Positions 3,602 to 54,761 of a DNA stretch of 64,000 nucleotides are shown here, piece by piece. Numbering within the stretch: position 1 is the first letter of the stretch; the number at the start of each line of letters is the position of its first letter. The notes beneath the pieces are model-generated. The model saw only the letters and a list, made by a program, of their open reading frames with translations, made no database searches and had not been told where the DNA came from. The stretch is from Aequorivita vladivostokensis (GTDB lineage Bacteria; Bacteroidota; Bacteroidia; Flavobacteriales; Flavobacteriaceae): the NCBI RefSeq assembly GCF_000952855.1, contig NZ_JSVU01000006.1:1-64000 (forward strand). The letters are read 5' to 3'. The position numbers were made by a program, and so were the translations under genes.

Positions 3602-3605
3602 AAAA

Positions 3606-3701
3606 GTGTTCAGTGTTCAGTGGCAGTGTGCAGTTCTACTCTAAACTCATCAACATTTAAGCATTTAAACTTTAAAACCCCTAAACATTTAAACTTTTTC
3701 A
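3606..3701 (+). repeat. Degenerate heptamer spacer between fabG and the VWA gene
   Basis: The spacer begins gtgttca gtgttca gtggcag tgtgcag and drifts into words such as catttaa, actttaa and taaactt. A 7-bp phase can be followed over most of the segment up to the GTG start at 3702, with a slip near the end. It is related in wording to the spacers at 49312 and 49698. Confidence 0.6.
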
Positions 3702-10292: not shown

Positions 10293-11150
10293 ATGGAAAA
10301 ACTAAAAATAGCGGTACAAAAATCTGGGCGACTTCACGACGAATCGCTGGCATTGCTCAAGGATTGCGGCATTTATATAGACAATGGCCGCGACCAGTTA
10401 AAGGCCTCGGCCACTAATTTCCCTTTGGAAATCTATTACTTGCGCAACAGCGATATTCCACAGTATTTAAAGGATGGCGTGGTGGACTGTGCCATTATTG
10501 GCGAAAATCTTTTGGTTGAAAAAGGCGAAGAGATTTCAATAGCCAGTCGATTGGGGTTTTCAAAGTGCCGCGTTTCCCTCGCGGTTCCCAAAACTTTTAG
10601 ATATAATTCCATTGAAGATTTCAAAGGAAAGCGAATTGCAACAAGCTACCCTGTAACCACTCGAAATTATCTGAAAGAAAAGGGAATTGAAGCCGAACTT
10701 CATATTATCAACGGCAGCGTAGAGATTGCGCCCAACATTGGTCTGGCAGATGCCATTTGCGACATTGTGAGCAGCGGCAGCACCCTTTTCAAAAATAATT
10801 TAAAGGAAGTGGAAGTCATTTTAAAAAGCGAAGCCGTGCTTGCGGTTTCACCCACAATTTCCCAAGATGTCAACAAAATTCTCGACAAAATTCGTTTTAG
10901 ATTCCAATCCGTTTTGCAAGGCCGCGATTCGCGTTATGTGCTGTTAAATGCACCCAACGAAAAAATAGAGGAAATTATAAAAATCCTACCCGGAATGAAG
11001 AGCCCAACACTGCTTCCCTTGGCAGAGGAGGGCTGGAGCAGCATCCATTCCGTAGTAAACCGCGATGTCTTTTGGGAAGTAATCGAGGAACTGAAAGCCG
11101 CCGGCGCCGAAGGAATATTGGTATGCCCTATTGAAAAAATGATACTTTGA
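10293..11150 (+). CDS. hisG: ATP phosphoribosyltransferase, long form
   Basis: 285 residues, matching the long (hexameric) HisG class with a C-terminal ACT-like regulatory domain (KSPTLLPLAEEGWSSIHSVVNRDVFWEVIEELKAAGAEGILVCPIEKM). The phosphoribosyl-binding region shows GLADAICDIVSSGSTL. It catalyses the first step, ATP + PRPP to phosphoribosyl-ATP, and in the long form is feedback-inhibited by histidine without HisZ. First gene after the attenuator. Confidence 0.97.
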   Translation: MEKLKIAVQKSGRLHDESLALLKDCGIYIDNGRDQLKASATNFPLEIYYLRNSDIPQYLKDGVVDCAIIGENLLVEKGEEISIASRLGFSKCRVSLAVPKTFRYNSIEDFKGKRIATSYPVTTRNYLKEKGIEAELHIINGSVEIAPNIGLADAICDIVSSGSTLFKNNLKEVEVILKSEAVLAVSPTISQDVNKILDKIRFRFQSVLQGRDSRYVLLNAPNEKIEEIIKILPGMKSPTLLPLAEEGWSSIHSVVNRDVFWEVIEELKAAGAEGILVCPIEKMIL

Positions 11151-11281
11151 GCGATGAGCGACGAATTGCGCGCTACGAGCTGAATCTTGAAGAAAGAAAA
11201 TTAAACATTAAATATGTAACCCTAAGCGAATTCGAAGTGTTAAATCTTGAATTTTGAACCTTGAATTTTGAATCTTAAGCA
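11151..11281 (+). repeat. Heptamer-rich spacer between hisG and hisD
   Basis: The 131-bp gap starts with gcgatgagcgacgaa wording like the array after hisA, and ends with five heptamers in one phase (aaatctt, gaatttt, gaacctt, gaatttt, gaatctt; 11242-11276), five bases before the hisD ATG. No gene was found. Confidence 0.7.
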
Positions 11282-12580
11282 ATGAAAAAAATATACAACC
11301 CCAAATTCGAAACGTGGCCCGAAATTTTGAAACGGCCAACCCAAGCTATCGCGGATATTGAAGCGACGGTAAACGACATTTTTTCTGAAATAAAATTGAA
11401 GGGAGATAGCGCCGTCAAAAAATACACCCAACTTTTTGATGGCATATCATTGAAGAACCTGTCGGTTTCAGAGAAAGAAATATCCGCTGCGGAAAAAAAT
11501 GTTTCTGAAGAATTGAAAGAAGCCATCAATCTCGCAAAAGCAAACATCGAAAAATTCCACCATGCCCAAAAAACAGAACGAATAACCGTCGAAACTACCG
11601 AAGGCGTAAGCTGTTGGCAGGAAAAAAGAGCCATCCAAAAAGTGGGACTTTACATTCCGGGCGGTTCGGCGCCGCTGTTTTCAACGGTTTTAATGCTGGC
11701 TATCCCAGCGAATATCGCCGGCTGTAAGGAGATTGTGTTGTGTACGCCTCCCGACAAAAACGGCAAAATTAACCCTGCCATTCTTTATACCGCAAAACTT
11801 TGCGGAGTTACCAAAATTTTTAAAATCGGCGGTATTCAAGCTATTGGCGCTATGACTTTCGGCACCGCAAGTGTACCTTCAGTTTATAAATTATTCGGGC
11901 CGGGCAATCAGTTTGTGACCGTTGCCAAACAAATTGCAACCAAACACGGCGTGGCAATAGATATGCCCGCGGGTCCTTCGGAATTGTTGGTGTTTGCAGA
12001 TGAAACCGCGAATCCCGCATTTGTCGCTTCCGATCTTTTATCGCAGGCCGAACACGGCGCTGATAGCCAGGTTATTTTAGTTACTACTTCGGAAAAGTTG
12101 CTGATTTCCGTAGAAAAAGAAGTGGTAAAGCAGATGGCGTCGCTTTCCCGAAAATCAATTGCTGAAAAAGTAATCGAAAATTCAAAACTTATTTTGGTGG
12201 AAAACAATACCCAAGCCATCAATCTTATCAATGAATACGGCCCGGAACACTTTATTGTGGTTTCAAAGGAAGAAGATTTTTTCGTTGAAAACATTCAAAA
12301 CGCAGGCTCGGTCTTTATTGGGAATTATACGCCCGAAAGCGCGGGCGATTACGCTTCCGGGACAAATCACACTTTACCAACCAATGGTTTTGCAAAGCAG
12401 TACAGCGGGGTAAATCTTGACAGTTTTTTGAAGAGCATGACCTTTCAGAAAATTTCAGCAAAGGGAATCCAAAATATTGGAAAATCCATTGAAACAATGG
12501 CGGAGGCAGAAGGATTACAGGCACACAAAAACGCTGTGACTTTGCGGTTGGAGAGTTTAAATAATAAAACCGATGAATAA
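11282..12580 (+). CDS. hisD: Histidinol dehydrogenase
   Basis: 432 residues, full length. Signature segments: YIPGGSAPLFSTVLMLAIPA, FGPGNQFVTVAKQ, SQAEHGADSQVILV (zinc and substrate ligands), YGPEHFIVV (the catalytic Glu-His pair) and SAGDYASGTNHTLPT. It performs the last two oxidations, histidinol to histidine, with NAD+ and Zn2+. The hisC start lies 8 bp inside its 3' end, so translation is coupled. Confidence 0.97.
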   Translation: MKKIYNPKFETWPEILKRPTQAIADIEATVNDIFSEIKLKGDSAVKKYTQLFDGISLKNLSVSEKEISAAEKNVSEELKEAINLAKANIEKFHHAQKTERITVETTEGVSCWQEKRAIQKVGLYIPGGSAPLFSTVLMLAIPANIAGCKEIVLCTPPDKNGKINPAILYTAKLCGVTKIFKIGGIQAIGAMTFGTASVPSVYKLFGPGNQFVTVAKQIATKHGVAIDMPAGPSELLVFADETANPAFVASDLLSQAEHGADSQVILVTTSEKLLISVEKEVVKQMASLSRKSIAEKVIENSKLILVENNTQAINLINEYGPEHFIVVSKEEDFFVENIQNAGSVFIGNYTPESAGDYASGTNHTLPTNGFAKQYSGVNLDSFLKSMTFQKISAKGIQNIGKSIETMAEAEGLQAHKNAVTLRLESLNNKTDE

Positions 12581-13622: not shown

Positions 13623-14758
13623 TGAAAAAACGCGTACTGTTTATAGACCGCGATGGCACCATCATAAAAGAAACCGTGGACGAGCAGATAGATGCTTTTG
13701 ATAAAATGATTTTTTATCCGAAAGTGTTTACTTATCTGGGAAAAATCGCAAAGGAACTCGATTTCGAATTGGTGATGATAACCAATCAAGACGGTTTGGG
13801 AAAGGATTCATTTCCCGAGAAAACCTTTTGGCCTGTACATAATTTCGTAATGAAATCCTTTGAAAATGAAGGGGTGCATTTCAGCGAAGTGTTGATAGAC
13901 AGGACCTTTCCGCACGAAAAGGCGGATACACGCAAGCCTGGGATTGGCCTGCTGAAAAAATATTTTTCCGAAGAATACGATCTTGAAAATTCCTTTGTAA
14001 TCGGCGATAGGTTGACCGATATGGAATTGGCCAAAAACCTGGGTTCCAAAGGAATTTTTATAAATGACGATACCAATTTGGGCACTTCCGAAATTTCATT
14101 AAAAGCTGAAGAACTTCAAAAATATATCGCTTTGAAAACCAACGATTGGCAGAAAATTTATGAGTTTTTAAAACTGAAGCAACGCGTTTCCGAAATCCAT
14201 CGCAAAACAAACGAAACCGATATTTCCATAAAACTGAATTTGGACGGCACGGGAAAAAGCGCCATAAACACGGGAATTGCCTTTTTTGACCATATGTTGG
14301 ACCAATTGGCGCGCCACGGGCAAATGGATTTGGCAATCACCGTAAAAGGCGATTTGGAAGTGGACGAACATCACACCATTGAGGATACCGCCATTGCCCT
14401 GGGCGAAGTTTTCAACCAAGTCCTCGGCGATAAATTGGGGATGGAGCGCTACGGCTTCTGTTTGCCGATGGACGACTGTTTGGCGCAGGTTGCCATTGAC
14501 TTCGGCGGCAGAAATTGGCTAGTTTGGGATGCGGAATTTAAGCGTGAAATGATAGGAAAAATGCCCACGGAAATGTTTCAGCATTTCTTTAAAAGTTTTA
14601 CCGATGGCGCCAAGGCAAACCTCAATATTAAAGCCGAAGGGACCAACGAACACCACAAAATTGAAGCAATTTTTAAGGCATTCGCAAAGGCAATAAAAAT
14701 GGCGGTAAAGCGCGATGCGGAAAAAATGATTTTACCATCAACTAAAGGTCTACTTTAA
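13622..14758 (+). CDS. hisB: Bifunctional histidinol-phosphatase / IGP dehydratase
   Basis: 378 residues from the ATG at 13622, which shares a base with the hisC stop (TAATG); the frame is open upstream but [17 protein letters not shown] is the standard N-terminus. The N-terminal HAD phosphatase has [13 protein letters not shown] and [14 protein letters not shown]. The C-terminal imidazoleglycerol-phosphate dehydratase has [28 protein letters not shown] and [18 protein letters not shown], the metal-binding histidine pairs. The last base of the stop codon overlaps the hisH ATG. Confidence 0.97.
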
Positions 14759-15351
14759 TGAAAATTGTAATAATTAATTATGGAGCTGGGAATATCCAAA
14801 GCATCAAATTTGCCATCAAAAGACTGGGTTTTGAAGCAATTTTGAGTGATGAGGAAGCTGAAATTCGAACTGCAGATAAAGTAATTTTCCCCGGCGTGGG
14901 CGAGGCGAGTAGCGCGATGCAAAAGTTAAGAGCAAGTGAGCTGGACAAAGTAATTCCCACTTTAAAACAGCCTGTTTTAGGGATTTGTTTGGGGATGCAG
15001 TTGCTCTGCAATTCCTCGGAAGAAGGAAATACTAAAGGCTTAGGCATTTTTGATGTGGATGTTGTGAAATTTTCAAACCGAGTAAAAGTGCCACAAATAG
15101 GTTGGAACCAGATTTCAAATTTAAAATCCGGCTTGTTTGAGGGTATTTCAGAAAACGAGTTTATGTATTTGGTGCATAGCTTTTATGCGCCTTTGTGTAA
15201 AGAAGCCATTGCAATTTCAGAATACGGAATTCAATATGCGTCGGCCTTACAAAAGGATAATTTTTACGGCGTACAATTCCACCCCGAAAAAAGCAGCACC
15301 GCAGGCGCGCAAATACTTAAAAACTTTATAAATCTAACATCTCACGTCTAA
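14758..15351 (+). CDS. hisH: Imidazole glycerol phosphate synthase, glutaminase subunit
   Basis: 197 residues, class I amidotransferase: nucleophile Cys in GICLGMQLLCNSSEEG, and the His-Glu pair in YGVQFHPEKSS. It supplies ammonia to HisF. Its final codons (NLTSHV and the stop) are encoded by the 7-bp array that continues into the hisA leader, so the repeat has become coding at this gene's C-terminus. Confidence 0.97.
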   Translation: MKIVIINYGAGNIQSIKFAIKRLGFEAILSDEEAEIRTADKVIFPGVGEASSAMQKLRASELDKVIPTLKQPVLGICLGMQLLCNSSEEGNTKGLGIFDVDVVKFSNRVKVPQIGWNQISNLKSGLFEGISENEFMYLVHSFYAPLCKEAIAISEYGIQYASALQKDNFYGVQFHPEKSSTAGAQILKNFINLTSHV

Positions 15352-15388
15352 CATCTCACGTCTAACATCTAATATCTAACATCTAATA
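15333..15388 (+). repeat. Eight 7-bp units joining hisH to hisA
   Basis: Eight heptamers in one phase: tctaaca alternating with tctcacg or tctaata. The array starts inside the last codons of hisH, and its last base is followed directly by the hisA ATG. Unit number and position relative to the start codon match the array in front of lpxD (eight units, 56 bp), although the words differ. Confidence 0.9.
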
Positions 15389-16165
15389 ATGAGAATAATA
15401 CCAGCAATAGACATCATAGACGGCAAATTCGTCCGTCTTTCAAAGGGCGATTACAGCACCCAAAAAATCTATAACGAAGATCCGTTAGAAGTGGCCAAAA
15501 AGTTTGAGGCACACGGAATAAAATATTTACACTTGGTAGATTTGGACGGTGCGAAAAGTAAACACATTGTGAACCATAAGGTTTTAGAAGAAATCGCTAT
15601 AAATACTTCTTTAAAAATTGATTTCGGTGGCGGGCTAAAAACCGATGAAGATTTGCGGATTGCCTTTGAATGTGGCGCAAACCAAATCACTGGCGGCAGT
15701 ATTGCGGTGAAAAACCCTGAAATTTTCAAATCTTGGTTGGACAAATTCGGAAGCGAAAAAATAATTCTGGGTGCCGATGCAAAGGATGAAAAAGTAGCAA
15801 TCAGCGGATGGACGGTGGATTCCGCTTTGGAATTGATTCCTTTTATACAGAAATATATTGAAGAAGGTATTGGCTACGTAATTTGCACAGACATCAGTAA
15901 AGATGGGATGTTGCAGGGTCCATCCTTTGATTTATATAAAAAAATACTCGACGAATGTCAGTCTGTTAAATCGCTCCCGATAGCTATCGGAACGAAACCT
16001 AATGTAAACGAAATGAAACTAATTGCCTCGGGTGGAATTTCATCATTTGATGAACTTCCAAAACTCGCTGAAATAGGCTGCGAAGGAGTAATAGTTGGCA
16101 AAGCGATTTACGAAAACCGAATAAGTTTAAAACAACTCGAAAACTATATTTTGAGCGACGATTGA
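15389..16165 (+). CDS. hisA: ProFAR isomerase
   Basis: 258 residues, a (beta/alpha)8 barrel. The acid/base aspartates are visible in [15 protein letters not shown] and [15 protein letters not shown]; phosphate-binding segments are [12 protein letters not shown] and [11 protein letters not shown]. It isomerises the N'-phosphoribosyl formimino intermediate to the ribulosyl form. A segment around [22 protein letters not shown] is longer than in many HisA proteins. The C-terminal codons SDD and the stop already lie in the next heptamer array. Confidence 0.96.
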
Positions 16166-16250
16166 CGAGCGACGAGCGACGAGCGACGAGCGACGAACGA
16201 CGAACGACGAACGACGAACGACGAGCGATGAGCGACGAACTACGAACGAG
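16153..16250 (+). repeat. Fourteen 7-bp units (gagcgac/gaacgac) after hisA
   Basis: Fourteen heptamers in one phase, mainly gagcgac and gaacgac, starting inside the last codons of hisA. A 17-nt segment (16188-16204) is exactly complementary to 16832-16848 on the other side of the four-helix-bundle gene, and an 11-nt segment (16221-16231) to 16714-16724, so the two flanks can pair as nested stems in RNA. Confidence 0.92.
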
Positions 16251-16342
16251 TATTGAGTTATGTAAAAAATGAAAGGTTTCGAATGATTAAATAATTGAAA
16301 TAATTATTAAATTGAATTTGTCTAACATTAAAATAAAAGGAT

Positions 16343-16690
16343 ATGCAGGATTTAAAAGCTAGAACCAAAAAGTTCACTTTGGATTGTTTGGCCTTGTGTA
16401 CTAAAATTCCAAGGTCAAGGGAATTTGACTCAATTGTACGTCAACTTATTCGGTCATCAAGTTCTGTTGGCGCAAATTATCGCGCTGCAAACAGAGCAAA
16501 ATCTGATCGTGATTTTATAAACAAGTTAAAAATTGTAGAAGAAGAAGCAGACGAAAGTATGTTTTGGCTGGAGATATTATTGGAGATTAATTCAAATAAC
16601 ACTATAACCATCCAAAATTTAATAAAGGAAAGCGACGAATTGGTTGCGATTACTGTTGCATCAATAAAAACAGCAAGAAAAAGATTATGA
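16343..16690 (+). CDS. Four-helix-bundle protein (23S rRNA IVS-encoded type)
   Basis: 115 residues matching the TIGR02436 / IVS-ORF family: KARTKKFTLDCLALCTKIP, then the signature LIRSSSSVGANYRAANRAKSDRDFINKLKIVEEEADESMFWLE. The family was first seen inside intervening sequences of 23S rRNA in Leptospira and Coxiella and is widespread as single genes in Bacteroidota; the fold is a pentameric four-helix bundle of unknown function with a possible nucleic-acid role. Here it interrupts the his operon between hisA and hisF and is flanked on both sides by heptamer arrays that are complementary to each other. It has no evident role in histidine synthesis. Confidence 0.88.
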   Translation: MQDLKARTKKFTLDCLALCTKIPRSREFDSIVRQLIRSSSSVGANYRAANRAKSDRDFINKLKIVEEEADESMFWLEILLEINSNNTITIQNLIKESDELVAITVASIKTARKRL

Positions 16691-16709
16691 TAAATATTTC
16701 CAAATCTGG

Positions 16710-16861
16710 TCGTTCATCGCTCGTACCTCAAACTTCAATTCGGCGCTCGGCGCTCGTATCTCGTAATTCAATTTCGTCGTTTGTACCTCACCATTTATTT
16801 CTCCCTTAATGGCTCCTACTTCGCATTTCAATTCGTCGTTCGTCGCTCTTACCTCGTACTT
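16710..16861 (+). repeat. Heptamer arrays before hisF, complementary to those after hisA
   Basis: Two blocks: 11 in-phase units at 16710-16786 (tcgttca, tcgctcg, tacctca, gctcgta...) and about six at 16820-16861 (ttcgcat, cgtcgtt, cgtcgct...), ending six bases before the hisF ATG. On the opposite strand the wording is acgaacg/aagagcg, the same as the hisA-side array, so the flanks are inverted relative to each other. No gene in this gap. Confidence 0.85.
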
Positions 16862-16867
16862 CAAATT

Positions 16868-17623
16868 ATGTTAACTAAACGAATCATACCCTGTCTCGAT
16901 ATTAAAAACGGAAGAACCGTAAAAGGCATCAACTTCCTAAATCTGCGCGATGCCGGCGACCCTGTGGAACTGGCAAAATTCTATTCCGAAAACGGAGCGG
17001 ACGAACTGGTTTTTCTGGATATTTCAGCAACCGAGGAGCGAAGGAAAACCTTGGCAGAATTGGTTTTAAAAGTAGCGGAAACCATCAACATTCCCTTTAC
17101 CGTTGGAGGCGGGATTTCTTCTGTGGAAGATGTGGAAACACTATTGAATAACGGGGCTGACAAGGTTTCAATAAATTCTTCAGCAGTAAAAAATCCGCAA
17201 TTGATCAATGATTTGGCTTCAAAATTTGGTTCGCAATGTATTGTAGTGGCCATTGATGCCAAACAGATTGACGGCCATTGGAAAGTGCATTTGGTAGGAG
17301 GGAAGGTGCCTACCGAGCTCGATTTGTTTGCGTGGGCAAAAGAAGTGGAACAGCGCGGGGCGGGTGAGATTCTCTTTACCTCCATGGACCACGACGGCAC
17401 CAAAAACGGTTTTGCGAACAAAGCTTTGGCCAAACTTTCAACCGAACTCAATATTCCGATAATAGCTTCGGGAGGTGCGGGAACAATCCAACATTTTTCG
17501 GATGCCTTTATTGAAGGGAAAGCCGATGCGGCCTTGGCTGCCAGTGTATTTCACTTTAAGGAAATAGCTGTGGAAGATTTAAAAAAAGAATTGAAAATTC
17601 AGGGCATACCTGTTAGACTTTAA
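16868..17623 (+). CDS. hisF: Imidazole glycerol phosphate synthase, cyclase subunit
   Basis: 251 residues from the ATG at 16868; the frame is open upstream but runs through the repeat array, and [20 protein letters not shown] is the standard HisF start. Catalytic aspartates are in IPCLDIKNG and [12 protein letters not shown]; phosphate-binding motifs are VGGGISS and ASGGAGT. With HisH it forms IGP and AICAR from PRFAR and ammonia. hisIE follows by 4 bp. Confidence 0.97.
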
Positions 17624-17627
17624 CGAT

Positions 17628-18233
17628 ATGAAAATAGATTTTAAAAAATATAACGATGGTCTTGTACCAGCGATAATTCAAGACGTTTTAACAAGTAAAG
17701 TGCTGATGCTGGGATATATGAATGAGGAAGCATTTCTGAAAACCAATCAATCAAAGCAGGTTACTTTTTTCAGCAGAAGTAAGCAAAGGTTGTGGACAAA
17801 AGGGGAGGAAAGCGGCAATTTTTTGGAACTTGTTTCCATTGCGGTAGATTGTGACAACGATGCCCTGCTACTAAAAGTGAACCCCAAAGGACCCGTTTGC
17901 CACAAAGGAACTGATACGTGTTGGCAGGAAGAAAATGTTTCAGAATATGGATTTCTTTCAGCATTGGAAAAAATCATTCAAAAGCGAAAAGAAAACCCAG
18001 AAAATGAGGATTCCTACATTGCATCCCTTTTCCGAAAGGGCATCAATAAAATTGCACAAAAAGTAGGCGAGGAGGCGGTGGAAGTGGTTATTGAAGCCAA
18101 AGACAGCAACGACGATCTTTTCCTCAATGAAAGTGCAGATCTGCTCTTTCATTATATGATTTTACTTCGGGCAAAGGGCTTTACGCTTCAGGATGTGGAG
18201 AAAATACTTCGGCAGCGCCATAAATTGGAATAA
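17628..18233 (+). CDS. hisIE: Bifunctional PRA-cyclohydrolase / PRA-ATP pyrophosphohydrolase
   Basis: 201 residues. N-terminal HisI domain with FFSRSKQRLWTKGEESGN, VDCDNDALLLKV and the zinc cysteines in GPVCHKGTDTCW. C-terminal HisE domain with LFRKGINKIAQKVGEEAVEVVIEAKD. It carries out steps 2 and 3 of histidine synthesis. Last gene of the his operon. Confidence 0.97.
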   Translation: MKIDFKKYNDGLVPAIIQDVLTSKVLMLGYMNEEAFLKTNQSKQVTFFSRSKQRLWTKGEESGNFLELVSIAVDCDNDALLLKVNPKGPVCHKGTDTCWQEENVSEYGFLSALEKIIQKRKENPENEDSYIASLFRKGINKIAQKVGEEAVEVVIEAKDSNDDLFLNESADLLFHYMILLRAKGFTLQDVEKILRQRHKLE

Positions 18234-18276
18234 TCTTTTTACTTTTTCCTACCTTTAAAAAAATAATCAATTTTTT

Positions 18277-19365
18277 ATGGCTGCACGAAGAAGAAAAAAA
18301 CCGCAAACCACCAAAATACAACCTAAAAGGGCAAAAAACCTTTCCCCGGGAACGGTAACCTATACCGGAAAAAAAACAACTACGGTTACCGAGCTGGACA
18401 TAATTGATTATTCCAGAGAACATTTCCACCGCTTTGAAACAAATAATATACAGGAAGCCTTTAACTATGAAGACTCCTCAAACATTACTTGGATAAATGT
18501 AAACGGACTTAGCAATACAGACGACATTGTAACCCTGGGTAACCACTTTGAACTTCACCCGCTTATACAGGAAGACATTGTTACAACCAATCAGCGCCCA
18601 AAGATTGATGAATACGAGGAATATCTGTTTATTGTTTTCAAAATGTTGCACTACGATGAAAGCGAACAACTGAACAATGAACACATAAGCATGGTAGTGG
18701 GCAAGGATTATGTTATAACTTTTCAGGAAGCCGAGGGGGACGTGTTTGGCGATTTAAGGGAACGCTTGGAGCACGGAAAAGGAAGGATTCGCGGGTTGGG
18801 CTCTGATTACCTGATGTTTGCCATTATGGATGCGGTGGTGGACAACTATTTTACCGTTATTGAATTTTTGAGCAATAAGGTAGAAATCCTTGAGGATAAA
18901 CTTTTTGACGACAAGGACGATGAAAACATAACCGAGGAGATCCAAGAACTAAAAAAGGAAATCTTAAAAATCCGAAAGGCGGTCATTCCCTTGCGGGAGG
19001 TTATAAACCGATTGGAAAAAATAGACACCACCTTGATTGAGGAACGCACTAACAAATACATCCGCGATTTGTACGATCATATAATTCAGGTAAACGAAAG
19101 TGTTGAAATTTACCGCGATATGATCTGGGGCTTGATGGATATGTATATGACCACCATCAGCAACAAAATGAACGAGGTGATGAAGGTATTGACAATTATG
19201 GCCTCCATTTTCATTCCGCTTACCTTTATGGCGGGTATCTACGGGATGAATTTTGACCATATGCCCGAGCTTCATTTTCGGTATGGATATTACTACCTAT
19301 GGGGCGCCATGATCCTCGTGTTCCTGGGCTTGCTATGGTATTTCAAAAGGAAGAAGTGGTTGTAG
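18277..19365 (+). CDS. corA: Magnesium/cobalt channel CorA
   Basis: 362 residues. A basic N-terminus (ARRRKKPQTTKIQPKRAKN), a large cytoplasmic alpha/beta funnel domain and a long coiled helix lead to two C-terminal membrane helices. The selectivity motif YGMNF (GMN) sits between them, followed by MPELHFRYGYYYLWG, and the protein ends with basic FKRKKWL. CorA pentamers import Mg2+. It starts 43 bp after hisIE, behind a possible promoter (TACCTTTA at about 18251). Confidence 0.93.
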   Translation: MAARRRKKPQTTKIQPKRAKNLSPGTVTYTGKKTTTVTELDIIDYSREHFHRFETNNIQEAFNYEDSSNITWINVNGLSNTDDIVTLGNHFELHPLIQEDIVTTNQRPKIDEYEEYLFIVFKMLHYDESEQLNNEHISMVVGKDYVITFQEAEGDVFGDLRERLEHGKGRIRGLGSDYLMFAIMDAVVDNYFTVIEFLSNKVEILEDKLFDDKDDENITEEIQELKKEILKIRKAVIPLREVINRLEKIDTTLIEERTNKYIRDLYDHIIQVNESVEIYRDMIWGLMDMYMTTISNKMNEVMKVLTIMASIFIPLTFMAGIYGMNFDHMPELHFRYGYYYLWGAMILVFLGLLWYFKRKKWL

Positions 19366-25848: not shown

Positions 25849-26295
25849 AACAATTTGATTTTAAGTTATTTTATACTGTTTTCTAAATATTTATACAAAC
25901 TATCAAATTCCCAGCGCTTTCCCATGTTTGCTAACATTATTTAACACTGACTTTATTATAAAAGTTAAATTTAATTGGTAAATAGTTTTTTCAGGTAAAG
26001 GCCTTGCGTCTTGCTCAAAATCTCCTATTAGGCAATTCAAATCTCGTACTTCGTACGTTGTCGTTCGTATACCGTCGCTCTTGGCTCTTTTCTCTTGGCT
26101 GTTAAATAGTGAAGCGTGAGGCGTATGCCTTGATGGTGAAAGATGTAAGACCGCTGCGCTGAAAGACGTATGACATTAGTCGGTAAGACGTAAGATTTTT
26201 AGACAATTCACATACTCACACACTCACAAACTCACAGATTTACCTATTCAACTATTCACCATTGCGCCTTCTGTCCGCAGCTTACAGCTTATTGA
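25849..26295. other. 447-bp intergenic region with heptamer array
   Basis: No gene found. At 26035-26104 there are ten in-phase heptamers (tctcgta, cttcgta, gttcgta, gctcttg, tctcttg and variants), sharing words with the arrays before hisF and upstream of the XRE gene. Around 26206-26238 an 8-bp-spaced cacatact/cacacact/cacaaact run is also visible. Confidence 0.7.
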
Positions 26296-28131
26296 CTAAA
26301 GTCTCTTTCGCCATTCATTGGCACACTTTGTTTTATATGCTTCCGCCAAAGTTCTTAGATGTTTTATGTGATCAGAAACTTCTTCCCTTGCCAAACGTAC
26401 AAATTCCTCGGCTATACTTATGGCCGTTTCACTGTCATTACAGTTTACTTTTGGGTTCTTATTATTGCGCAGCATACGCCTTGCATTGCAGATAAGATGG
26501 TACATCCGTTGATTTTCATAGGTGGTTTTATGGAATATCGCTGTGGGGGTATTGGAGAAATGACTGCAGAGATGTAGGAGATATGGCAAGGAAGACTGTT
26601 TTGGTTTATATTCCCAAAATACCTGTGCCATTCCTATGCAGGTTTGTTCAATTGCCAATCTTACCATCGTAAGTGTGATGTTGAAATCATAATTAGTAAA
26701 GCCATCATTCTCCATTAAATTTAATAAGTAGGCCGCCTTGCTGGATCTATCTTCCCAAATTTTCTCAATATTTGCTACCATTAATGGATGATAGTTTACT
26801 TGAAAGTTTGGGCCATAATTTTTTTCCGAAGCATAATATGCCCATTGGGACTGTGTAATAATAGATTCCAAAAAATGACTTCCATAATTCCTTTTCTCAA
26901 ATACTTCGTTTACGGTGTATAAAATAGCATACACCCTACAGTTTCCCTCGGTTTCTTTATAAATATAATCTGATATTGCGGCAGGGCCCAGGGAGGCGGG
27001 TGTATTACTAACAAGCATCAGTGTGTAGATAATAGTATTTTGCAAAAATGGAATAGTCTGCTCCAAATGGACTTCCATACTTTGTGAATCCTCGTATTTG
27101 CTGATAAGAAAAACGGAATCAAGTTCCAACTTTTTTTTTAACAATTCGATTACCCTAATTAAAAGTTCGTCTTCGGTTTTGTAGTTGCCTCTTTTGATAC
27201 TAATGGATTGGGGTTCTTCGCTATCCATATGGGGTAGCACTTCCGCAGTTTCCACGGAAGTATCATTTGGTGCTTCCACTGCTACCGCTATTTTCTCTCC
27301 GGTTTCATCGGACTTATCTTTTTTATAGCTTGCCACAAAGCACCGTTGCCAACTGAAATAGAATAATGATTTAACCAAAATGAAAAGTTGCTCTGTTTTG
27401 TAATACAGCATATCCACAGCTTCAATACTAGGCTCAAAATCACTTTGGTAGCGGGCGGCGCAATAGGACTGGTCCAGAAGTTCCATTGTCGCAGCTTCTT
27501 CCAAATCATTTAAATCAAAAAAGGAAGCCAAGGAAGTTATAAAGCCGTGGCAGTACTCTTGGTGTTCACGTAGCCGATGGGTTATCTTATTCCTGCCCAT
27601 CAGGGCACACTCCGCTGCTCGAAATAGTAGTTCCATCGTCTGGTGGTAAGCAAAGGTGCTCTGGGCATAGTGACCCTTTTCAAAATGACTACTTGCCCCT
27701 TTACTAAAAGCATCAATCTTTTTTAGCTCCTTATCGAAAGCGCGTTTGCTTCTGCCTATCAAATCGTTTAGACATAGAGTAGAATTCATAAAGGGAAATC
27801 CCAACTCCTGCTGTCCATACACAACGTTCCCCAATAAAAGATTCTCAATAAAAAAGAGGTTTCCGGCTTCAATCTGTTCCATAGCATAGCTTTGGGTATA
27901 TATACGGTGCCGCAGTTGTGGATGTTCCTTCAACAAAGCATCTGCCTTTTCAAAATTGCTGGGCTTGCAATCGGCCTCACCTACAATAAGGGTAAGCATG
28001 TTAAGTTCAGGATTAACCGTAAATTCTCCCCAGAAAATAAAAAACGGATTTAGTGCAGCTATCAGCTCATTTAAAAGTTCTTCCGGTAGTAGGTGGGTTG
28101 GGGTGGACGATATGATGGGTTGGTAGCTCAT
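26296..28131 (-). CDS. MNT/HEPN-domain-like protein, 611 residues
   Basis: Three parts can be seen. Residues about 1-115 look like a nucleotidyltransferase-type (MNT) fold (LNELIAALNPFFIFWGEF..., LTLIVGEADCKP) without an intact GSxxxGxxxxSD motif. Residues about 140-260 are a helical HEPN-like domain (HFEKGHYAQSTFAYHQTMELLFRAAECALMG, then THRLREHQEYCH with closely spaced Arg and His). The C-terminal half (about 330-611) contains a further helical segment around TNYDFNITLTMVRLAIEQ. HEPN domains are common in toxin-antitoxin and abortive-infection RNases; activity here is unproven. Isolated in the accessory region; a stop-interrupted relative of its N-terminus lies at 31772. Confidence 0.6.
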   Translation of the reverse strand: MSYQPIISSTPTHLLPEELLNELIAALNPFFIFWGEFTVNPELNMLTLIVGEADCKPSNFEKADALLKEHPQLRHRIYTQSYAMEQIEAGNLFFIENLLLGNVVYGQQELGFPFMNSTLCLNDLIGRSKRAFDKELKKIDAFSKGASSHFEKGHYAQSTFAYHQTMELLFRAAECALMGRNKITHRLREHQEYCHGFITSLASFFDLNDLEEAATMELLDQSYCAARYQSDFEPSIEAVDMLYYKTEQLFILVKSLFYFSWQRCFVASYKKDKSDETGEKIAVAVEAPNDTSVETAEVLPHMDSEEPQSISIKRGNYKTEDELLIRVIELLKKKLELDSVFLISKYEDSQSMEVHLEQTIPFLQNTIIYTLMLVSNTPASLGPAAISDYIYKETEGNCRVYAILYTVNEVFEKRNYGSHFLESIITQSQWAYYASEKNYGPNFQVNYHPLMVANIEKIWEDRSSKAAYLLNLMENDGFTNYDFNITLTMVRLAIEQTCIGMAQVFWEYKPKQSSLPYLLHLCSHFSNTPTAIFHKTTYENQRMYHLICNARRMLRNNKNPKVNCNDSETAISIAEEFVRLAREEVSDHIKHLRTLAEAYKTKCANEWRKRL

Positions 28132-28753
28132 AATTATGTGAATTTGTGAGTTTGTGAATCTGTTCTGGGTGTCAGTTCTCAGTTCTCAGTTTGGTTTTTA
28201 GTTAGACGTGATGCCTGAAAAGGTTAATGCATGGTCCACGGCCTAAAGCCTTCTAATGCTAAAGTTGTAAAAGGTTGGGGGGATAAAAAACCTATGCGAC
28301 TTTTAAAAAACTAAAATGGGAGGATATTTTATCTACTGGCTTTGGGATTTGGTGTAGATGTTGGTCTTCATTGTATTATGAAATTGCTGGCTTAGTAACA
28401 TTCCCTTAACCAGCTTCAAGCACTTTCTGAGCAATTGCTTCAATAGAGAAATATAGAAAGGGGTTGGGTGTGGGATTTTTTGATTTGGGCTCCTGCTGCA
28501 TTATTTTGACTTATATTTGAAATTAGATCTTACTCACAGGGGGGGATAAAAGCAATAGGATATTTCGTTGTTGGCAGTCGTTGTAATGGACGAACGCAGC
28601 AAACAATAAAAAGAACAAAAAATGACAAAAAAGAAATAGCAAAAGCACAACAGCGTGTACACGAATAACGGCTGCATTTACTAATCGGAAATTCACCTCG
28701 TTTTGCTAAATTAGGTGCGTCAGCCACCGCAAGTGCGCGGTAGCGGGAGCTAA
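28132..28753. other. Roughly 620-bp region without a supported gene
   Basis: The part next to the MNT/HEPN gene has a heptamer-like run (tgtgaat, tgtgagt, then cagttct twice) at 28139-28190. The rest holds only short frames with no recognisable product. A GC-richer patch at 28715-28750 (ccaccgcaagtgcgcggtagcgg) contains a short inverted repeat and stands out from its AT-rich surroundings; I could not assign it. Confidence 0.5.
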
Positions 28754-54691: not shown

Positions 54692-54695
54692 AAAA

Positions 54696-54758
54696 AGTTT
54701 TCAGTTTTCAGTCGCAGTTTTCAGTGAAACTGCTAACTGAGACTGCGACTGAATACTA
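54696..54758 (+). repeat. Nine 7-bp units with a 12-bp inverted repeat
   Basis: agttttc, agttttc, agtcgca, gttttca, gtgaaac, tgctaac, tgagact, gcgactg, aatacta: nine in-phase units, three bases before the next ATG. ttcagtcgcagt (54707-54718) is exactly inverted at 54742-54753, so the leader can fold. Confidence 0.8.
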
Positions 54759-54761
54759 TTT

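Follow-up and report, generated by a model that had tools for sequence, protein, structure and literature searches.

An S23 gene bracketed by inverted heptamer arrays at the hisA-hisF junction of Aequorivita vladivostokensis, and its relatives in other operons

The hisA-hisF junction of Aequorivita vladivostokensis carries a gene of the S23 family, and its two flanks are complementary to each other. The question raised by this locus is what such a unit does in a protein operon: whether it is an RNA-borne relative of the intervening sequences (IVSs) of 23S rRNA, a mobile DNA element, a regulatory switch, or a gene that merely lies among repeats. The unit shares its protein family and plan with the rRNA IVSs and differs from them in its protein-operon setting and its paired heptamer arms. 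A search of the open-licence literature turned up no description of S23 genes that lie in operons between inverted heptamer arms. The window is the whole stretch of DNA that was analysed (64,000 nt). X is the upstream arm, Y the downstream arm, and X-S23-Y the whole unit. The features are given in Table 1.

Table 1. Features of the hisA-hisF junction (positions in the window).
Feature	Position	Strand	Basis or remark
hisA, upstream neighbour of S23	15389..16165	+	PF00977
Upstream arm X, period 7 (GAGCGAC / GAACGAC), 13.9 copies	16153..16249	+	tandem and inverted repeats
S23 leader, AT-rich	16250..16342	+	motif scan: without TANNTTTG match
S23 / 23S_rRNA_IVP gene, 115 aa, four-helix bundle	16343..16690	+	PF05635, TIGR02436
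Downstream arm Y, block 1	16709..16729	+	inverted repeats; partner 16181-16201; 16709-16724 also with 16221-16236
Downstream arm Y, block 2	16739..16771	+	inverted repeats
Downstream arm Y, block 3	16773..16789	+	inverted repeat; partner 16188-16204 at 82%
Downstream arm Y, block 4	16832..16862	+	inverted repeats; 16832-16848 exact partner of 16188-16204
hisF, downstream neighbour of S23	16868..17623	+	PF00977; ATG at 16868

The first-pass annotation had described an IVS-type gene between mutually complementary arrays in the his operon. Both profile scores are above their cut-offs (PF05635, 55.1 bits, cut-off 33.8; TIGR02436, 77.3 bits, cut-off 24) and the flanks are inverted, with a 7-nt period, so that this description holds. 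The exact complementary pairs of 17 nt (16188-16204 / 16832-16848) and 11 nt (16221-16231 / 16714-16724) that it reported were both recovered; they belong to inverted repeats of 26 nt (88%) and 16 nt (94%), respectively. The hisA stop codon falls within the upstream array. Downstream, several degenerate blocks stand in place of a single clean array, and the last of them ends 5 nt upstream of the hisF ATG. No rRNA match was found in 14500-18500, which places the his element outside any rRNA gene. The Rfam search of the his region gave nothing of note (one weak microRNA-family match, 17929-18020); that of eight loci from other genomes gave no match at gathering score.

The structure predicted for the his-junction S23 protein (AlphaFold2) has four helices (pLDDT 95.7). 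Its nearest fold matches are 2rld (TM 0.85) and 2gsc, followed by a weaker match to Avd, ribonucleoprotein entries of diversity-generating retroelements included (4dwl, 8ub7; E 0.02, TM about 0.77). The solved family structures, 2gsc and 2rld, contain five chains each, and the S23 protein of Xanthomonas is described as a homopentameric toroid in a part of PMC4990558. Pairwise dN/dS is 0.01-0.11 for six intact his-junction S23 genes, with a median of 0.10 over 71 S23 pairs at other sites; judged by these ratios, the S23 orthologues are under purifying selection. One hisA-hisF S23 gene (L094) has ACG at the position of the ATG start; its frame is intact and conserved.

The same arrangement was sought around other S23 genes. 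In the own-arm test, each upstream flank was compared by alignment with the reverse-complemented downstream flank of the same copy and with those of other copies; 187 of 190 loci were taken in. This genome has 11 PF05635 genes. A survey of S23 copies for flank complementarity had been proposed as a check, and in this genome it turned up no exception: all 11 copies have arrays on both sides, mutually inverted, and in 11/11 the match to the own flank exceeds that to the flanks of all 10 other copies. The unit wording differs from copy to copy (mostly 7 nt, some 6, 8 or more). PF05635 was found in all 28 genus genomes searched (5 to 21 copies each) and in 116 of 148 sampled phylum genomes. The inverted flank score has a median of 16.25 over 80 genus loci versus 9.0 at 600 random window positions. 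The his copy scores 18.5, the maximum of the random positions is 15, and 47 of the 80 genus loci lie above all 600.

All rates of the own-arm test apply to samples of best-scoring or first-listed matches, not to weak family members. All 40 sampled partners were beaten by 60/79 genus loci, and all partners by 18/30 phylum loci (best 30 loci). Among genome_contigs loci, 25/78 beat all 40 partners and 53/78 at least 95% of them; the cross scores are raised there because many of these loci have common AGATTTGAG-like wording. A further 60 phylum loci were picked from the family list prior to any look at flanks: 28/60 beat all 59 partners and 36/60 at least 95%. About half of the loci in the broad samples thus fail to beat all partners. 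Outside Bacteroidota, 18 of 30 loci from nine genomes score at least 13, some of them already among the loci surveyed earlier. Most of these positives come from metagenome-assembled genomes and could reflect faulty binning. Among isolates, Fodinibius is positive at 2 of the 4 loci shown; Gloeocapsopsis (Cyanobacteria) and Bowmanella (Gammaproteobacteria), named isolates, score only 7 to 9. The evidence for the arrangement outside Bacteroidota is weak. At the level of sequence, an S23 gene bracketed by inverted heptamer arms is a real and general observation, and a larger one than the first finding. The same arrangement surrounds many S23 relatives and so has the look of a widespread type of genetic element within bacterial operons that has drawn little notice.

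Whether the arms belong to the protein or to the site was read from their wording. Likeness of wording is given as a lexicon cosine (shared 5-mers). Same-site pairs, which are not independent, have a cosine of 0.02 where S23 identity is below 50% (n=12) versus 0.70 where it is at least 85% (n=23). Pairs with unrelated neighbours, not independent either, have 0.44 at S23 identity of at least 70% (n=30) versus 0.03-0.05 below 50%. Different S23 lineages at one junction (sdhA-sdhB, cysD-cysN, fadJ-fadA) carry different arms, changed on both sides; three wordings occur inside one sdh S23 lineage, each matched on both sides. The wording tracks the S23 protein rather than the site, and the arms are therefore part of the element, not mere landing sites. 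This finding and the four empty hisA-hisF junctions whose sequence was inspected, none of which has arrays, leave the earlier suggestion of a mobile cassette that inserts at heptamer arrays without support. The intact S23 proteins of 110 loci cluster by site. Across sites, identity peaks at 80.5% (a pair from two genomes, with one site poorly defined) and is otherwise at most 73%; no near-identical copies were found at different sites. Recent mobility was not seen among the loci compared, and by these sequence comparisons the X-S23-Y elements look old and site-stable.

Empty sites exist, as the proposed comparison with hisA-hisF junctions lacking the gene brought out. Among 16 hisA-hisF loci, 8 are filled; at 4 the junction is empty and the two genes share an 11-nt overlap, at 3 more the coordinates indicate an empty junction, and 1 went unread; a relative with a 93% identical HisA is among the 4 with the overlap. 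No target-site duplication was noticed by eye at hisA-hisF. Of the 27 sdhA-sdhB loci, sorted by eye, 6 have an S23 frame and 5 have remains; 1 holds an X-Y hairpin that lacks the gene, and 1 holds only Y. Clean gaps of 3 to 5 nt are present at 8 loci and other inserts at 5; 1 was not read. At the 28 ffh-folD loci, sorted likewise, an S23 frame is present at 10; 8 more are decayed or partial, 3 hold a gene-less hairpin and 1 holds only X. Another palindrome lies at 5, and arrays without match at 1. Gene-less X-Y hairpins are found at ffh-folD (L231, L234, L245), at sdhA-sdhB (L260) and in the window (54692-54760). The last of these (AGTTTTCAGTCGCAG... / ...CTGCGACTGAATACT) fills the gap between two co-directional genes. 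Other short palindromes (CCTCGAG..CGAGAGG; CCCGCCTTCGCGGG) occur in relatives at the same junctions, at ffh-folD (L236, L239, L240, L251, L253) and at hisH-hisA (L090, L093, L096).

The position of the elements is that of operon junctions. Orientation figures for neighbours come from a composition score; an earlier count used the longest open frame. Where both neighbours are callable, S23 is co-directional with both at 73/74 genus loci and 68/72 genome_contigs loci; in the two phylum samples it is so at 23/29 and 42/53. Median distances from S23 are 68 nt on the side of the upstream stop and 59 nt on that of the downstream start, and the arms fill both gaps. At one recurrent site (8 loci in several families: L012, L121, L323, L326, L342, L349, L367, L369), S23 lies antisense to an ABC-ATPase gene and its downstream partner, so that an own promoter would be needed there.

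The usual Bacteroidota promoter motif is TANNTTTG. It has no match in the his S23 leader (nearest, TGAATTTG at 16313) and is not in excess in S23 leaders (12 of 187 loci versus 13.2 expected); a simple scan for sigma-70 promoters and terminators gave nothing above shuffles that was worth using. On these grounds, the idea that the S23 leader holds a separate promoter was rejected. With no excess of the motif, S23 probably depends on the operon transcript, from which the gene would be read. Life as RNA fits the sense orientation and the absent promoter; dependence on read-through would equally produce the sense bias.

The arms are periodic, with autocorrelation peaks at 7, 14 and 21 nt, and within X the dinucleotide repeated most often is AG. 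Y is G-poor and lies near the start codon of the downstream gene. The RNA fold of 16150-16870, in which the arms pair, has z = -4.68 versus 20 shuffles. In the minimum free energy (MFE) structure, over half of X is paired to Y at 103 of 123 loci, these loci having been chosen for complementarity; the sense RNA is more stable than the antisense in only 74 of the 123. Mismatches compatible with G-U pairing are not in excess over the A-C type, either in a first test (155 versus 185; 101 of 110 loci, L012 and loci scoring below 13 being left out) or in a second, which also served for the MFE count (78 versus 109; 123 loci, eight named loci being left out along with any that had N, short flanks or a score below 13). 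Selection for RNA pairing through G-U mismatches was accordingly dropped as a candidate, both tests running slightly in the reverse direction; selection of this kind, base by base, is not seen.

The explanation that is favoured, held with about evenly balanced confidence, is that the element is an mRNA-borne relative of the rRNA IVSs, with stem-forming arms, cutting by RNase III and an S23 pentamer that recognises its own arm. X, the S23 gene and the complementary Y together form the genetic element that fills the hisA-hisF junction. In the operon transcript, X and Y would pair in a long stem and leave the S23 message as the loop, on the model of the 23S rRNA IVSs. RNase III would cut this stem, leaving separate messages for hisA, S23 and hisF, the last beginning with a short G-poor leader. 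The S23 homopentamer would recognise its own arm, perhaps with one AGNNNNN unit per subunit, and the arm-bound protein would either guard the stem or steer its processing. Stem formation in the transcript, cutting of the stem and own-arm binding are the steps that we infer. The IVS-like unit proposed at first stands as anatomy, by the family and fold of S23, the complementary flanks, the sense position in the operon and the predicted stem; its putative processing out of the his transcript is plausible, and the genome has an RNase III gene.

The plan recalls the 23S rRNA IVSs of Coxiella, Leptospira and others, in which an S23-family ORF also lies between complementary stem-forming ends, and which likewise show sporadic presence and empty sites (PMC4990558, in part). 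According to the same source, the Coxiella IVS has two or three tandem GACAGAT heptamers, in strain-variable number, upstream of the S23p ORF. The X-S23-Y elements differ in being located in protein operons, in several copies per genome, and in having quasi-periodic heptamer arrays of many wordings as both arms. The Coxiella IVS ORF is reported to be decaying (PMC4990558), whereas the S23 ORF here is under purifying selection. Since their site is in protein operons, the X-S23-Y elements are not members of the rRNA IVS class.

Two other accounts touch on parts of the arrangement. Arrays of TAACTGA heptamers before start codons or after stop codons have been described, Bacteroidetes included (PMC4679880, in part); they have one fixed heptamer, whereas here the wordings vary and the arms are paired around S23. 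A term search of that paper gave no mention of S23, four-helix or 23S rRNA. A table of phage elements of F. columnare includes a gene for a four helix bundle protein, placed between those for guanylate kinase and a nicotinate-nucleotide adenylyltransferase (PMC5524665, in part).

The strongest competitor, of real weight but unlikely, is a mobile element at the DNA level. The arms would be terminal inverted repeats, built from several sites bound by S23 or a partner enzyme, gene-less hairpins would be non-autonomous derivatives and solo arrays would be scars. The arm wording that tracks the S23 protein, the empty sites, the gene-less hairpins at ffh-folD, sdhA-sdhB and 54692-54760, the lack of G-U excess and the different S23 lineages at one junction favour it. 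It is opposed by the clustering of S23s by site without near-identical copies elsewhere, the strong sense bias in the genus, the purifying selection on S23, the lack of a known nuclease fold in a 115-aa four-helix bundle and the fact that no target duplication was noticed, by eye, at hisA-hisF. REP/RAYT (REPIN) systems comprise a single gene with inverted-repeat flanks and gene-less hairpins elsewhere. The layout and the gene-less hairpins are alike; the X-S23-Y elements differ in their unrelated protein, their heptamer-array arms and the lack of visible recent dispersal. Avd of diversity-generating retroelements has the same four-helix-bundle fold as S23. Mobility driven by a reverse transcriptase, or a retroelement of this kind, was rejected for this genome, which has no PF00078 match; PF00078 is present in 9 of the 28 genus genomes.

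A wider form of the favoured reading is doubtful. According to it, S23 proteins would be ring-shaped RNA-binding pentamers, each of which recognises a five-heptamer array of its own with one AGNNNNN unit per subunit, and X-S23-Y would be a general operon-internal class of RNA in Bacteroidota, perhaps beyond, of which the rRNA IVSs would be a displaced side branch. The longest chain of AG at 7-nt steps in the upstream flank has 3, 4, 5 and 6 units at 22, 18, 34 and 14 of 184 loci, respectively. The mode at five is kept when S23s are clustered at 70% and lost at 60% (46 clusters). In the later 60-locus sample, chains of 4, 5 and 6 occur at 11, 15 and 5 loci, with the mode again at five, and the downstream CT chain has no mode at five. 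The link between five units and the pentamer is suggestive only, because the mode is lost at 60% clustering and the CT chain lacks it.

A regulatory switch in cis, rather improbable, would use the same numbers. TRAP is a ring-shaped oligomer that binds repeated UAG/GAG sites. By a similar logic, the S23 pentamer would wrap the five-unit X of its own mRNA and so control whether Y, lying against the following start codon, is available for translation. The likeness to TRAP lies in the ring oligomer and in the regular AG spacing, the latter seen as sequence periodicity; the X-S23-Y elements differ in the 7-nt step and the complementary second arm. The mode at five that survives 70% clustering, the five chains of each solved family structure, the homopentameric toroid (PMC4990558, in part) and the G-poor Y close to a start codon speak for the switch. 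The loss of the mode at 60% and the CT chain speak against it, as do the common orthologous operons without the element, in which the switch would be dispensable.

Heptamer arrays are also found apart from S23 genes. Short-period arrays occur in 29 of 271 intergenic regions (464 kb of the genome), and 29 of 38 arrays have period 7; solo arrays therefore exist. Inverted pairs without S23 are rare: a self-inverted score of at least 16 is reached at 3 of 194 other co-directional junctions, and not all three are of the heptamer kind. Coincidence, by which heptamer microsatellites abound in junctions and S23 genes are merely among them, is hardly credible: period-7 arrays do occur elsewhere, but the inverted match within an element is far above that between elements and above that at random positions, and such pairs are this rare without S23. 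Several arrays lie elsewhere in the window. An array TCTAACATCTCACG lies directly before the hisA ATG at the hisH-hisA junction (15332-15388); its wording resembles the arms of L001 (fadJ-fadA), and it is absent or replaced in some relatives. The hisG-hisD junction (11150-11282) has an array like the his X arm, then one of other wording; 3602-3690 has an X-like array directly after a stop codon, again followed by one of other wording. At 26208-28191, a HEPN-domain gene (26299-28131, minus strand, PF05168) is flanked by matching arrays, ahead of its start and beyond its stop.

If the flanking arrays are the cognate partners of S23, the function and origin of S23 genes and of 23S rRNA IVSs become directly testable. 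The protein would have the heptamer arm as a defined ligand and the operon transcript as a defined site of action, and the empty sites would be natural controls. A hidden element that acts at the RNA level would then be present in many operons of housekeeping function (sdh, fad, cysDN, his, ffh-folD, nuo).
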